This document shows positions 6,091-36,954 of a stretch of 64,000 bases of DNA, piece by piece. Positions within the stretch are counted from its first letter, which is position 1. Each line of letters opens with the position of its first letter. The translations under genes were made by a program, and so were the position numbers. This stretch comes from Salipaludibacillus neizhouensis (GTDB taxonomy: Bacteria > Bacillota > Bacilli > Bacillales > Salisediminibacteriaceae), in assembly GCF_002886185.1 (NCBI RefSeq), contig NZ_KZ614146.1:2154930-2218929 (forward strand). The letters are read 5' to 3'. Below the pieces are notes generated by a model. It saw only the letters and a list, made by a program, of their open reading frames with translations, was not told where the DNA came from and ran no database searches.

Positions 6091-8132
6091 CCACCATTCA
6101 CCACCCCTACACTCTGTACTTCAATGTGTGACTCAAGTTCGTTATAAGATAATACTGGAACTTGAGGAATATACCGTTCAATTAAGTGTCTCACATACAT
6201 TCGAACCGCGGGCGAACAAAGAATAACTGGCATTTGTCCAGTTTCCTGCATACGTTCTACTTCGGACATGACGGATTCCATAATCGCCTGTGCTTTGGAA
6301 GGGTCTAAATTAAGAAAAGTTCCATGCTCTGTTTTTTGAATCGCATCGGCTAACGCTTTCTCAACACTTCCACTCACGGTAATAACGTATAATGCTTCAC
6401 CTTCTGCTGTGTAATGTTTAGATATTTGTCGTGAAAGGGATTGACGGACATACTCCGTTATTAAATCCGTATCCTTTGTCATCTGTCCATAATCCGCAAG
6501 CGTTTCAAATATAATTGGTAAATTTCGGATAGACACTTTTTCTCTTAAAAGATTACTCAAAACTTTTTGAATATCACCAGTAGACAATGGGTTTGGTGTT
6601 ACATCTTCTACAAGTGTTGGATATGTTTCATTCAAATGGTCAATAAGCTGTTTTGTTTCTTGTCTTCCAATGAGCTCATGAGCATGCTTTTTAATCACTT
6701 CTGTTAAATGAGTCGAAACCACAGAAGGTGGATCTACTACCGTGTAACCAGATAACTCGGCTTGCTCTTTTAACTCCTCGGAAATCCATAAAGCTGGCAA
6801 TCCAAATGCTGGTTCAACTGTCTCTATACCTGTAATATTTTCATCATCTACTCCGGGACTCATAGCCATAAAATGATCAAGAAGTAATTCTCCTCTTGCT
6901 ACTTCATTGCCCTTAATTTTAATCGAGTATTCATTCGGTTGAAGCTGAATATTATCGCGAATTCGAATCACTGGTACAACCATTCCCATTTCTATCGCTA
7001 ATTGTCGACGGATCATCACTACTCTGTCAAGAAGATCTCCTCCTTGGTTTGCATCAGCTAACGGGATAAGCCCATATCCAAATTCAAATTCAATCGGGTC
7101 TACCTGAAGAAGATTTATAACGCTCTCAGGTGATTTAATATCTTCTTCAGCATTAGCAGCCTGTTCTTCTTCCTGATCCTCTATCTGCACCAGTTTCTTT
7201 GCATTTCTTTCTATTGCAAGACCACCAACACCTAAAATTGCCGCTATCGTAGAAGTAACTATTAAGGAAATAGGTGTGAAAATTCCTAGTGCAAGAACGG
7301 TTCCGCCTGCTACATAAAGCATTTTTGGATATGCAAAGAGCTGGGAGGTAATGTCGTGACCCAAATTACCTTCGGATGCACCTCTTGTCACTACAATCCC
7401 TGTAGCAGTAGCAATTAAGAGAGCAGGAATTTGACTGACTAAACCATCACCTACGGTAAGAAGTGTATATTTACTAGCAGCCTCTGCTACAGGTAGTCCT
7501 TCTTGTAACATACCAATAACTAAACCAAATATAATATTTATAATTACAATGACGATACCCGCGATAGCATCCCCTTTAACAAACTTACTTGCTCCATCCA
7601 TAGAACCATAGAAATCAGCTTCTTGTTCAATCTTTTTTCGCCGATCTCTTGCTTCTGTATCAGAAATCATCCCTGCATTCAAATCAGCATCGATACTCAT
7701 CTGTTTACCAGGCATGGCATCCAGCGTAAATCTTGCGCCAACCTCAGAAACTCTTTCCGCACCTTTTGTAATAACAATAAATTGAATGACGACCAAAATA
7801 ACGAATACAACAAAACCTACTAAAGCATTTCCCCCAACAACAAAATCTCCAAATGTAGCAATAACATTCCCTGCATCACCTTGGTTACCTAAAATTGCTC
7901 GAGTAGTAGAAACGTTTAATCCTAAACGAAACAAAGTTACTAATAATAATAAAGTTGGAAAAATCGAGAATTGTAATGGTTCTTTCGTATTCATAGATAC
8001 TAAAATAATCAAGAGTGCAAATGTAATATTTACAATAATCAAGAAATCTATTATTCCAGTCGGTAGTGGAATAATTAACATAATGACTATTAAGATGACT
8101 GTTAATAATACGCTAAAATCTTTTAAAGGCAT
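6087..8132 (-). CDS. flhA: FlhA, flagellar type III export gate protein
   Basis: Inner-membrane component of the flagellar export gate. 681 aa from the chosen ATG (8130-8132), which has AAGAGGAGAG upstream; an in-frame ATG seven codons earlier overlaps that ribosome site and is less likely. The N-terminal half has about eight membrane segments, with the FHIPEP signature region (RFTLDAMPGKQMSIDADLNAG) near residue 140-160. The C-terminal half is the cytosolic substrate/chaperone docking domain and includes the conserved ESPVINLL-to-DRVVMIRR stretch. Close to full identity over long runs with the B. subtilis protein as I remember it. Confidence 0.97.
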   Translation of the reverse strand: MPLKDFSVLLTVILIVIMLIIPLPTGIIDFLIIVNITFALLIILVSMNTKEPLQFSIFPTLLLLVTLFRLGLNVSTTRAILGNQGDAGNVIATFGDFVVGGNALVGFVVFVILVVIQFIVITKGAERVSEVGARFTLDAMPGKQMSIDADLNAGMISDTEARDRRKKIEQEADFYGSMDGASKFVKGDAIAGIVIVIINIIFGLVIGMLQEGLPVAEAASKYTLLTVGDGLVSQIPALLIATATGIVVTRGASEGNLGHDITSQLFAYPKMLYVAGGTVLALGIFTPISLIVTSTIAAILGVGGLAIERNAKKLVQIEDQEEEQAANAEEDIKSPESVINLLQVDPIEFEFGYGLIPLADANQGGDLLDRVVMIRRQLAIEMGMVVPVIRIRDNIQLQPNEYSIKIKGNEVARGELLLDHFMAMSPGVDDENITGIETVEPAFGLPALWISEELKEQAELSGYTVVDPPSVVSTHLTEVIKKHAHELIGRQETKQLIDHLNETYPTLVEDVTPNPLSTGDIQKVLSNLLREKVSIRNLPIIFETLADYGQMTKDTDLITEYVRQSLSRQISKHYTAEGEALYVITVSGSVEKALADAIQKTEHGTFLNLDPSKAQAIMESVMSEVERMQETGQMPVILCSPAVRMYVRHLIERYIPQVPVLSYNELESHIEVQSVGVVNGG

Positions 8133-34579: not shown

Positions 34580-35743
34580 TTACGCTTTAACTAATGAAAC
34601 TATTTTTTCTGCACCATCAGCCATAGAGTCTGCCGCAGTAATATTTAATCCAGATTCTTTAAGAATCTTTTTCCCAAGCTCCACATTGGTTCCTTCAAGA
34701 CGAACCACTAATGGAATTTCTAAACCAACTTGCTTTGTAGCAGCTACAACACCATCAGCAATGATGTCACACTTCATGATCCCGCCAAAAATGTTTACAT
34801 AAATACCTTTTACATTTTTATCCGACAAGATGATTTTAAAGGCTTCTGTAACCTTTTCTTTTGTTGCACCGCCCCCAACATCTAAGAAGTTAGCAGGATC
34901 ACCAGAATAGTGCTTGATAATGTCCATTGTAGACATAGCTAATCCAGCTCCATTAACCATACAACCGATATTTCCATCTAAAGAAATATAACTGAGATCA
35001 AATTTTGAAGCTTCAATTTCCTTCTCGTCCTCTTCATCTAAATCACGATACTCGATGATGTCTTTTTGACGGTATAGTGCATTGGAATCGAAATTAAATT
35101 TCGCATCTAATGCCATAACTTTTCCGTCTCCAGTTGTCACTAGTGGGTTAATTTCAGCAATTGAGCAATCTTTTTCTGAAAATACTTTGTAGAGACCCAT
35201 CATAAATTTCACAGCTTCACGAACAAGCTCTTTTGGAATGTTAATATTAAAAGCTAGTCGTCTTGCTTGGTAAGGCATCAGTCCAGTTACAGGATCAACG
35301 ACCTCTTTGAAAATCTTTTCCGGTGTAGCTTCTGCTACCTCTTCAATTTCTGTTCCGCCCTCTTCTGATGCCATCATGACAATTCGTGAAGTAGCACGGT
35401 CAACAACTAATCCAACGTAATATTCATTTTGGATATCGCAACCTTCTTCAATTAGCAAGCGCTTTACTAATTTACCTTCAGGGCCCGTTTGATGTGTGAC
35501 AAGCGTTTTACCTAGAATCTCGTCAGCATATGTACGAACTTCATCTAAGTTCTTCGCAACTTTGACACCGCCGGCTTTTCCTCGTCCACCTGCATGGATT
35601 TGGGCCTTAACAACGTTTACAGCGCCCCCTAAAGATTTAGCTGCTTCTACAGCCTCTTCAACAGAGTATGCAACTTGTCCATTAGGTACTGCAACGCCAT
35701 AATTTCTTAACAGTTCTTTTCCTTGATACTCATGGATATTCAT
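34580..35743 (-). CDS. sucC: Succinyl-CoA ligase, beta subunit
   Basis: ADP/GDP-forming subunit. 387 aa. ATP-grasp domain at the N-terminus ([34 protein letters not shown]) and the C-terminal ligase-CoA domain ([31 protein letters not shown]). The ATG at 35741-35743 follows AAGGAGG; 34 in-frame upstream codons cover the promoter region and are not coding. Confidence 0.98.
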
Positions 35744-35788
35744 TTCCATCCTCCTTACTGATTCAAATAATGATGAATCTACACAACC

Positions 35789-35818
35789 ATTATAATAACA
35801 TTGCTGTGTTGTTGACAA
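35789..35818 (-). promoter_or_regulatory. Probable sigma-A promoter of sucCD
   Basis: Minus strand TTGTCA (35813-35818), 18-bp spacer, perfect TATAAT (35789-35794), 46 bp from the sucC ATG. Confidence 0.65.
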
Positions 35819-36052
35819 ATCCAACAAATCCTTTATTAGAAACAATTATCTAATTGAAGGAACCAAGAAAAGACAAAGTGAAGCTTTGTTATCTTTTCAC
35901 ACAATAACCATTTTACTATACTTTCCGACAATTATGTGAATAAAAAGCTTAAAAATTTTAATAAATCTACATTTTCATTTTTGAATAGGGAAAGTGGAAT
36001 TTTTAGTTTGTTCAAATTCGTGTTTTCATGCTAAATGAATAAATTTACATTG

Positions 36053-36551
36053 GAATTGATCGCTTTTCTCCTTGGTTTGATCGCGTTCCTCTCAAATGAA
36101 TGCGTTCCCTCCTGAATTGATCACGTTTCTCTTTCAATTGAACACGTTCCCCTTAAATGAATGCGTTCCTCCATGAATTGATTGCGCTTCTCTCTCAATT
36201 GATCACGGTTCTCTTTAAATTGTCCGCGTCTTTCCTCGAATTGAACGCGTTCCCCTCAAATGAATGCGTTCCCTCCTGAATTGATCACGTTTCTCTTTCA
36301 ATTGAACACGTTCCCCTCAAATGAATGCGTTCCTCCATGAATTGATTGCGTTTCTCTCTCAATTGATCACGGTTCTCTTTCAATTGACCGCGTCTTTCCT
36401 CGAATTGAACGCGTTCCTCTCAAATGAATGCGTTCCCTCCTGAATTGATTGCGTTCTTCTCTCAATTGATCACGTTTCTCTTCCAATCAATCTCGTCTTC
36501 CCTTGATTTGAATACGCTCCTCTCAAATGAATGCATCTGCCCTCCATCTCA
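36053..36551. repeat. Tandem array: about 20-bp degenerate units in a 164-bp higher-order repeat
   Basis: Units of 19-21 bp follow the pattern AATTGA-nn-gCGTT-YCTCTYnn or AATGAATGCGTTCC-n, about 24 in a row. They build a higher-order period of exactly 164 bp: the same 8-unit block begins at 36094, 36258 and 36422. The first two blocks differ at five positions by my reading. The third diverges after about 45 bp. One strand is purine-rich (GAGAGGAACGCG...). No gene, promoter or RNA explains it. It fills most of the gap between sucC and ylqH. The rest of that gap (35819-36052) is AT-rich with one small AAAGACAAAG/CTTTGTtaTCTTT hairpin near 35867-35898. Confidence 0.93.
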
Positions 36552-36590
36552 ATTAAGTACTCGATCATCCATAACAATCAACCACATACA

Positions 36591-36633
36591 AAAGGTCACT
36601 GAAAAAGTAACATTTACTTTTTCAGTGACCTTT
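36591..36633 (-). terminator. 20-bp perfect hairpin after ylqH
   Basis: AAAGGTCACTGAAAAAGTAA, loop of three, and its exact complement, 13 bp after the ylqH stop. The minus-strand tail is only TTTTG, so this may be a terminator or a copy of a hairpin family with core CTGAAAAAGT, also seen at 52958-53006 and 61791-61834. Confidence 0.65.
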
Positions 36634-36645
36634 CAAATTCATGCT

Positions 36646-36954
36646 CTATTTCTTTTTTAATTCCTCTTTATCTAGCCGATATACAAAAGCAAATACTTCT
36701 GCAACTACATCATATAAATTTTCTGGAATTCGTTCATTAATATCTAACTGAGATAATATTTCAACTAACGAGGCATCTTCTTGAATCGGAATGTTATGTT
36801 GTTTTGCCCGGTCAATAATTTCCTCGGCTACATAACCTTTTCCTTTTGCCTTTAAACTTGGAGCAGAGTCTTTCAAAACATCATAACCAAGAGCTATTGC
36901 TCTTTTACTGTAATCTATTTTCTTATCTCTTTGGTTTGAAGCCTTTTCACTCAT
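36646..36954 (-). CDS. ylqH: YlqH-like, homologue of the FlhB C-terminal domain
   Basis: 102-aa stand-alone relative of FlhBC. IALGYDVLKDSAPSLKAKGKGYVAEEIIDRAKQHNIPIQEDASLVEILSQLDINERIPENLYDVVAEVFAFVYRLDKE parallels the FlhB stretch after NPTH (IALKVINVAKNNEV...ELFKAVAEVLAYVYRIEKK). The NPTH autocleavage motif and membrane part are absent. Overlaps ylqG by four bases. Function unproven; an export-switch modulator is possible. Confidence 0.88.
   Translation of the reverse strand: MSEKASNQRDKKIDYSKRAIALGYDVLKDSAPSLKAKGKGYVAEEIIDRAKQHNIPIQEDASLVEILSQLDINERIPENLYDVVAEVFAFVYRLDKEELKKK

Follow-up and report, generated by a model that had tools for sequence, protein, structure and literature searches.

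What is the long tandem array that fills the intergenic region between sucC and ylqH in Salipaludibacillus neizhouensis, how did it arise, and are its units of any use to the host? The array, here called A1, lies within a 64,000-nucleotide stretch of contig NZ_KZ614146.1 (the window), consists of head-to-tail copies of a unit in the 10- to 100-bp range that defines minisatellites, and is probably a non-coding minisatellite of intergenic DNA that shares its unit type with at least four other arrays in this genome.

The array between sucC and ylqH

A first-pass annotation of the window described about 24 degenerate units of 19 to 21 bp, organized as a higher-order repeat with an exact 164-bp period. 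Tandem Repeats Finder (TRF), which it proposed as a check, recovers the 164-bp period with 2.4 copies, 94% matches, and a score of 716, and every other array in the window scores 46 or less. Sub-periods of 61 and 103 bp are also reported within A1, and segmentation places 24 anchors at spacings of 21 bp (17 instances) and 19 bp (6 instances), with a mean of 20.5 bp. One strand was said to be purine-rich, and the minus strand is indeed 65% purine; read on this strand, a unit starts with TCAATT or TCATTT, continues with a purine-rich run, and closes with ACG and about three terminal bases. The best-conserved columns are TCA, the TT of TCAWTT, and CG, such that the CG of the originally proposed core GGAACGCG is among them but its remaining letters are not.

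Three block starts had been placed at the 164-bp period. Two of these head whole blocks, which differ at five of 164 sites as originally counted, but the third block matches the block starts exactly over its first 28 bp, after which it is out of register (79 to 80 differences without gaps), so that the period rests on two whole blocks and a stub. Single units within A1 differ by a mean of 31%, versus 5/164 between whole blocks, in support of the earlier suggestion of recent duplication or homogenization.

Table 1. Coordinates of A1, its surroundings, and the related arrays (window positions unless marked C1, which denotes positions on the same contig)
Feature	Position	Strand	Details
sucC, ADP-forming succinate-CoA ligase beta subunit	34580..35743	-	
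Sigma-70-like hexamers upstream of sucC	35789..35818	-	TTGTCA-18-TATAAT
sucC upstream element	35885..35969	-	blastn, E up to 1e-3; ends 84 bp before A1
Tandem array A1	36053..36551	-	about 24 units in 21-bp and 19-bp forms
Block 1 of A1 higher-order repeat	36094..36257		164 bp, eight units; 5/164 differences from block 2
Block 2 of A1 higher-order repeat	36258..36421		164 bp
Third A1 block	36422..36534		rearranged and truncated; 103-bp TRF period
Inverted repeat	36591..36633		perfect, 20-bp arms, 3-bp loop; directly after ylqH
ylqH, FlhB-like small protein (PF01312)	36646..36954	-	
Array A2	C1 891804-892305		chain score 306; first found by BLAST; neighbors CrtD-like protein (below cut-off) and HAD hydrolase
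Array A3	C1 250048-250248		chain score 74; first found by sequence-only model; neighbors AdeR/CdaR-like regulator and peptidase related to ectoine hydrolase (both below cut-off)
Array A4	C1 348081-348194		chain score 58; first found by looser pattern; neighbors tyrS and rpsD
Array A5	C1 2575892-2576069		chain score 54; first found by looser pattern; neighbors deoD and lplA

The surroundings of A1 include an inverted repeat that is read as a putative ylqH terminator and is not among the results of a terminator scan. On the sucC side, full or partial matches to the upstream element occur in 23 of the 28 orthologous loci described below, and the count of sigma-70-like sites in the sucC region is not above that in shuffled sequences. 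A known structured RNA was considered and rejected, with no Rfam match at gathering score; there are seven weak matches (six at the inverted repeat and one at 35765-35814), none of them near that score.

The orthologous set comprises 28 ylqH loci of relatives from 35 family genomes searched, 31 of which matched, including this one, with two having a FlhB-type match alone. None of the 28 has an array at the orthologous site (best TRF score 50 versus 716 for A1), with sucC falling outside the stretch in two of them. A small ORF adjoins ylqH in 19 of the 28, including all seven sampled congeners (tblastn), and at one locus (L093) it has a SASP match barely over the cut-off (22.5 versus 22 bits, E 1.1e-4). 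There is no trace in the window, 36551-36646 included, of the small SASP-like gene of the relatives (loci L092-L119), and A1 occupies the sucC site where the seven sampled congeners have it.

Related arrays in this genome and searches in others

The first-pass annotation noted that no listed feature explains the array, which holds locally but not more widely, as A1 belongs to a set of no fewer than five related arrays in the genome and relatives have arrays with a similar period. A search for the unit, another of its proposals, yields four further arrays in this genome (A2 to A5) and no array of the unit type in other genomes of the order examined. A2 matches A1 by BLAST (E 1.4e-50, 73% over 393 bp). 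The looser pattern has 29 matches in the genome and none in the control, with 28 of the 29 within A1 to A5 and the other in a coding-looking stretch of contig C3 without an array. A profile-chain detector scores A1 at 288 and the best of 80 shuffled 20-kb strands at 15.2, although it was trained on A1 to A5 and these scores reflect separation and do not amount to an independent find. Applied to untargeted 20-kb stretches, 16 from this genome and 20 from congener G001, it scores 13.0 or less except in stretch L188, where a three-box match at 6295-6348 (20.9, above the shuffled maximum) was left uncounted as unconvincing. The model search scored 15 to 150 candidates per genome, and more arrays may therefore be missed.

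All five arrays sit between ORFs, with the same unit type present at several intergenic sites. A1, A3, A4, and A5 start shortly after hairpins that by eye are read as putative terminators, and the orientation of the arrays relative to adjoining genes is mixed. The TRF period of both A2 and A5 is 82 bp, half of 164 and equivalent to four units, and A4 has no 20-bp TRF row. The closest relative of a unit is usually in its own array in A1 (22 of 23) and A2 (20 of 24), with corresponding counts of 5/9, 1/5, and 4/9 for A3, A4, and A5, which are diverged (unit differences of about 0.5 from A1) and were detected with profiles and patterns that require the core. A1 and A2 have no common order of units (870 of 1,000 permutations are as good), and this, together with the nearest units being in the same array, fits concerted evolution by block duplication.

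Two palindrome-bearing sites were also encountered. A 91-bp unit with 2.5 copies at L188 7934-8164 (contig C2) carries a GTAGGTGCTAC/GTAGCACCTAC palindrome, which recurs at about 1147-1178 of L139, between deoD and array A5, and is perhaps a dispersed palindromic repeat.

The process that these features suggest is one in which slippage or unequal recombination would amplify several units at a time, in blocks of 164 bp (eight units) in A1 and 82 bp (four units) in A2 and A5, and the copying of such blocks would homogenize each array. New arrays may be founded on the rare occasions when a few consecutive units are copied, and would survive in gene-free stretches, with slippage plus drift as the putative main process.

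The absence of arrays of this unit type from other genomes of the order holds within the limits of each search. Across 397 genomes of the order, a strict pattern gives 19 matches in this genome and at most one in each other, and the loosest pattern gives 29 here and zero to six in each of the 396 others, against a background that exceeds the control (matches occur in 312 of the 397 genomes, and controls give up to four per genome). Two model matches in other genera (L121 and L122) were rejected as dimers without an array, and three further loci (L042, L088, and L089) have no TRF rows. Blastn of the array against 72,556 plasmids and 50,697 phages gives no match, and there is no exact match in viral contigs. 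Among 84,980 species there are nine records with one match each, in a search that used the exact pattern and may not cover the genome of origin. TRF on 110 loci of other genomes places one of the nine, L054, and one of the pattern matches within the family, L029, in arrays of 20 to 21 bp, and the chain detector, run on 90 such loci, scores L054 at 25.8 and all others at 18.5 or less. Among the papers listed in searches of an open-licence library, none concerns the A1 unit.

The conserved core and arrays of the same period

The columns TCAWWT and CG are conserved in both A1 and A2, the two largest arrays (rho 0.735, p 1.5e-4), despite the lack of a common unit order, and this suggests possible protein binding, which the first-pass annotation had raised for each unit. 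The functional interpretation would be that a 12-bp box in the units, AWWTGAWYRCGT (window plus strand), is bound by a candidate nucleoid or regulatory protein, with a box about every two helical turns and the arrays acting as putative anchoring or titration sites. It draws further on the mean unit spacing, on the absence of so high a correlation from all 300 neutral runs started from a single-unit founder, and on the correlation of A2 with A3, A4, and A5 (rho 0.75, 0.49, and 0.52; p 1e-4, 0.02, and 0.015), which is subject to ascertainment bias. However, neutral runs with multi-unit founders do reach rho 0.735 (3, 15, and 37 of 150 runs with two, four, and eight units, respectively), although only one run of 450 combines this with near-observed clustering of units by array. 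The correlations of A1 with A3, A4, and A5 are weak and not significant (rho 0.40, 0.26, and 0.38; p 0.07, 0.26, and 0.09), and the CG keeps its G in A1 and A2, but the commonest letter of that column reaches only 40 to 55% in A3 to A5. The 19-bp units break the helical phase, orientation to adjoining genes is mixed, the array is not conserved at the orthologous site, and there is no candidate protein. A binding array is an unlikely explanation. Either a DNA-binding protein exerting weak selection or a founder of several units may account for the conserved core.

Arrays with the same period and other units are present in related genera. A pattern match to the A1 unit (L029) led to an intergenic array in G008, of another genus in the same family, with 13.8 copies of a 20-bp unit, TCTCRCGTGCGGTGAATTGA (L211 10752-11026). 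It resembles A1 in its period, its AATTGA-containing unit, and its higher-order block (80 bp, four units, 84%), but by eye the two units have in common only AATTGATC and CGT. A second short array with a similar unit is 1.3 kb away. The same genome has several intergenic arrays of 20 to 21 bp with differing units (L211 7269-12410, L215 1622-11344, and L225 15777-15906), one of which has an 80-bp higher-order block with variable 7-bp slots separating constant boxes, as well as three arrays of a 32-bp unit (L212, L218, and L223). In G010, of a third genus of the family, a single 21-bp unit forms four arrays within 6 kb (L260 2773-8470), two of them classed as coding by the ORF rule. Congener G001 has 33 copies of a 51-bp unit at 84% match (L199 6018-7701; C1:1706018-1707701 of that genome), with an internal inverted repeat in the unit and the array partly coding by the same rule.

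TRF was also run on 94 untargeted stretches (1.88 Mb) from eight genomes of the family, with thresholds of period at least 10, copies at least 2.5, and score at least 60, and with intergenic and coding arrays separated by a simple ORF rule. Among the 34 arrays found, 19 are intergenic and 15 coding; periods of 20 to 21 bp are the commonest among the intergenic arrays (8 of 19, with 32 bp in three and other periods in eight) and account for 3 of the 15 coding arrays, these being small numbers in which several arrays have a unit in common. The eight come from G008 (four), G010 (two), G015 (one), and this genome (one, perhaps coding), and there are none in the 800 kb sampled from congeners G001, G004, and G006. 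The occurrence of same-period arrays with other units in related genera implies that this kind of array persists in the family while its sequences turn over. It could also be that the family keeps intergenic arrays for their period and not their letters, implying a process tied to DNA geometry; unrelated units of 20 to 21 bp (about two helical turns) are present in three genera, with four- or eight-unit blocks in two. We regard this as rather doubtful; if true, it would mean either that each lineage has a DNA-organizing protein coevolving with its unit or that slippage is set by helical pitch.

Outside the phylum, the array at L054 5549-5826 (Dysgonamonadaceae metagenome-assembled genome JAIRNV010000222.1, Bacteroidota) has 13.3 copies of GTTCTCAATTGAAAAGAGAAC at period 21 and stands after an 897-aa ORF that by eye is outer-membrane-protein-like. 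Its unit is strikingly like that of A1, with TCAATTGA, a purine run, and ACG in 21 bp, but it is palindromic (GTTCTC/GAGAAC) and leaves reading frames of 119 and 96 aa open. The similarity is likely convergence, as the array was found with a pattern that requires the shape of the A1 unit.

Remaining explanations and known repeats

Three further explanations fare poorly. A1 could be a degenerated coding repeat, a pseudogenized protein with 7-residue repeats, since most spacings are 21 bp (seven codons) and A2 contains a 66-aa frame; but that frame has no Pfam match, the frames inside A1 are 40 aa long (its ORFs of at least 40 aa number three, all plus-strand, two measuring 40 aa and a third, of 78 aa, extending beyond A1), and coding is excluded because the 19-bp units and the 82- and 164-bp blocks break the reading frame, making this very improbable. 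Iterons and ParR centromeres have repeats in a size range that includes about 20 bp, as in A1, but descent from the replication or partition region of a plasmid is hardly credible given ordinary genes as immediate flanks at all five sites, with no rep or par there, and no match among the plasmids and phages searched, which also speaks against a phage origin; the same applies to a CRISPR-like array, as the degenerate units follow each other directly and have no unique spacers between them. Misassembly is a common hazard with tandem repeats, but five related arrays with differing unit variants and block lengths make an assembly or collapse artefact barely conceivable, although there may still be an error in the number of copies. 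REP/BIME palindromic units were likewise rejected, as the A1 folds contain no regular unit-by-unit hairpin. Folding of the whole of A1 gives z-scores of -1.84 for the minus strand (4 of 100 shuffles are as good) and -2.66 for the plus strand (0 of 100), and its predicted RNA structure is weak.

A1 to A5 are best read as minisatellites scattered over intergenic sites, multiplying in blocks and changing quickly from one species to the next. The main use made of such scattered tandem arrays in bacteria is as markers for typing. With several unit families of one period in a single bacterial family, ongoing block duplication, and a core conserved between arrays, one can ask if bacterial satellites of this sort are neutral or are maintained by a protein or by DNA geometry.

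A1 to A5 are the same kind of thing as several published repeats, as these are described in three sources. PMC2884548 describes 20-bp small dispersed repeats that are tandemly repeated and possibly mobile; these are like the A1 type in their unit of about 20 bp, their several intergenic sites, and their lineage specificity, but A1 is long and degenerate with an eight-unit block, and the comparison is one of descriptions. The LTRR sequences of Nostoc PCC 7120 (PMC2408588, citing Masepohl 1996) are also intergenic repeats of one lineage whose function is not known, although they belong to another phylum and a hairpin is predicted for an LTRR copy, whereas the A1 unit folds weakly. The fast-evolving tandem repeats of Borgs (PMC9879509) resemble A1 in being recently formed, rapidly evolving direct repeats, some of them intergenic; Borg arrays arise independently, whereas A1 to A5 have a common unit type and reside in an ordinary chromosome.
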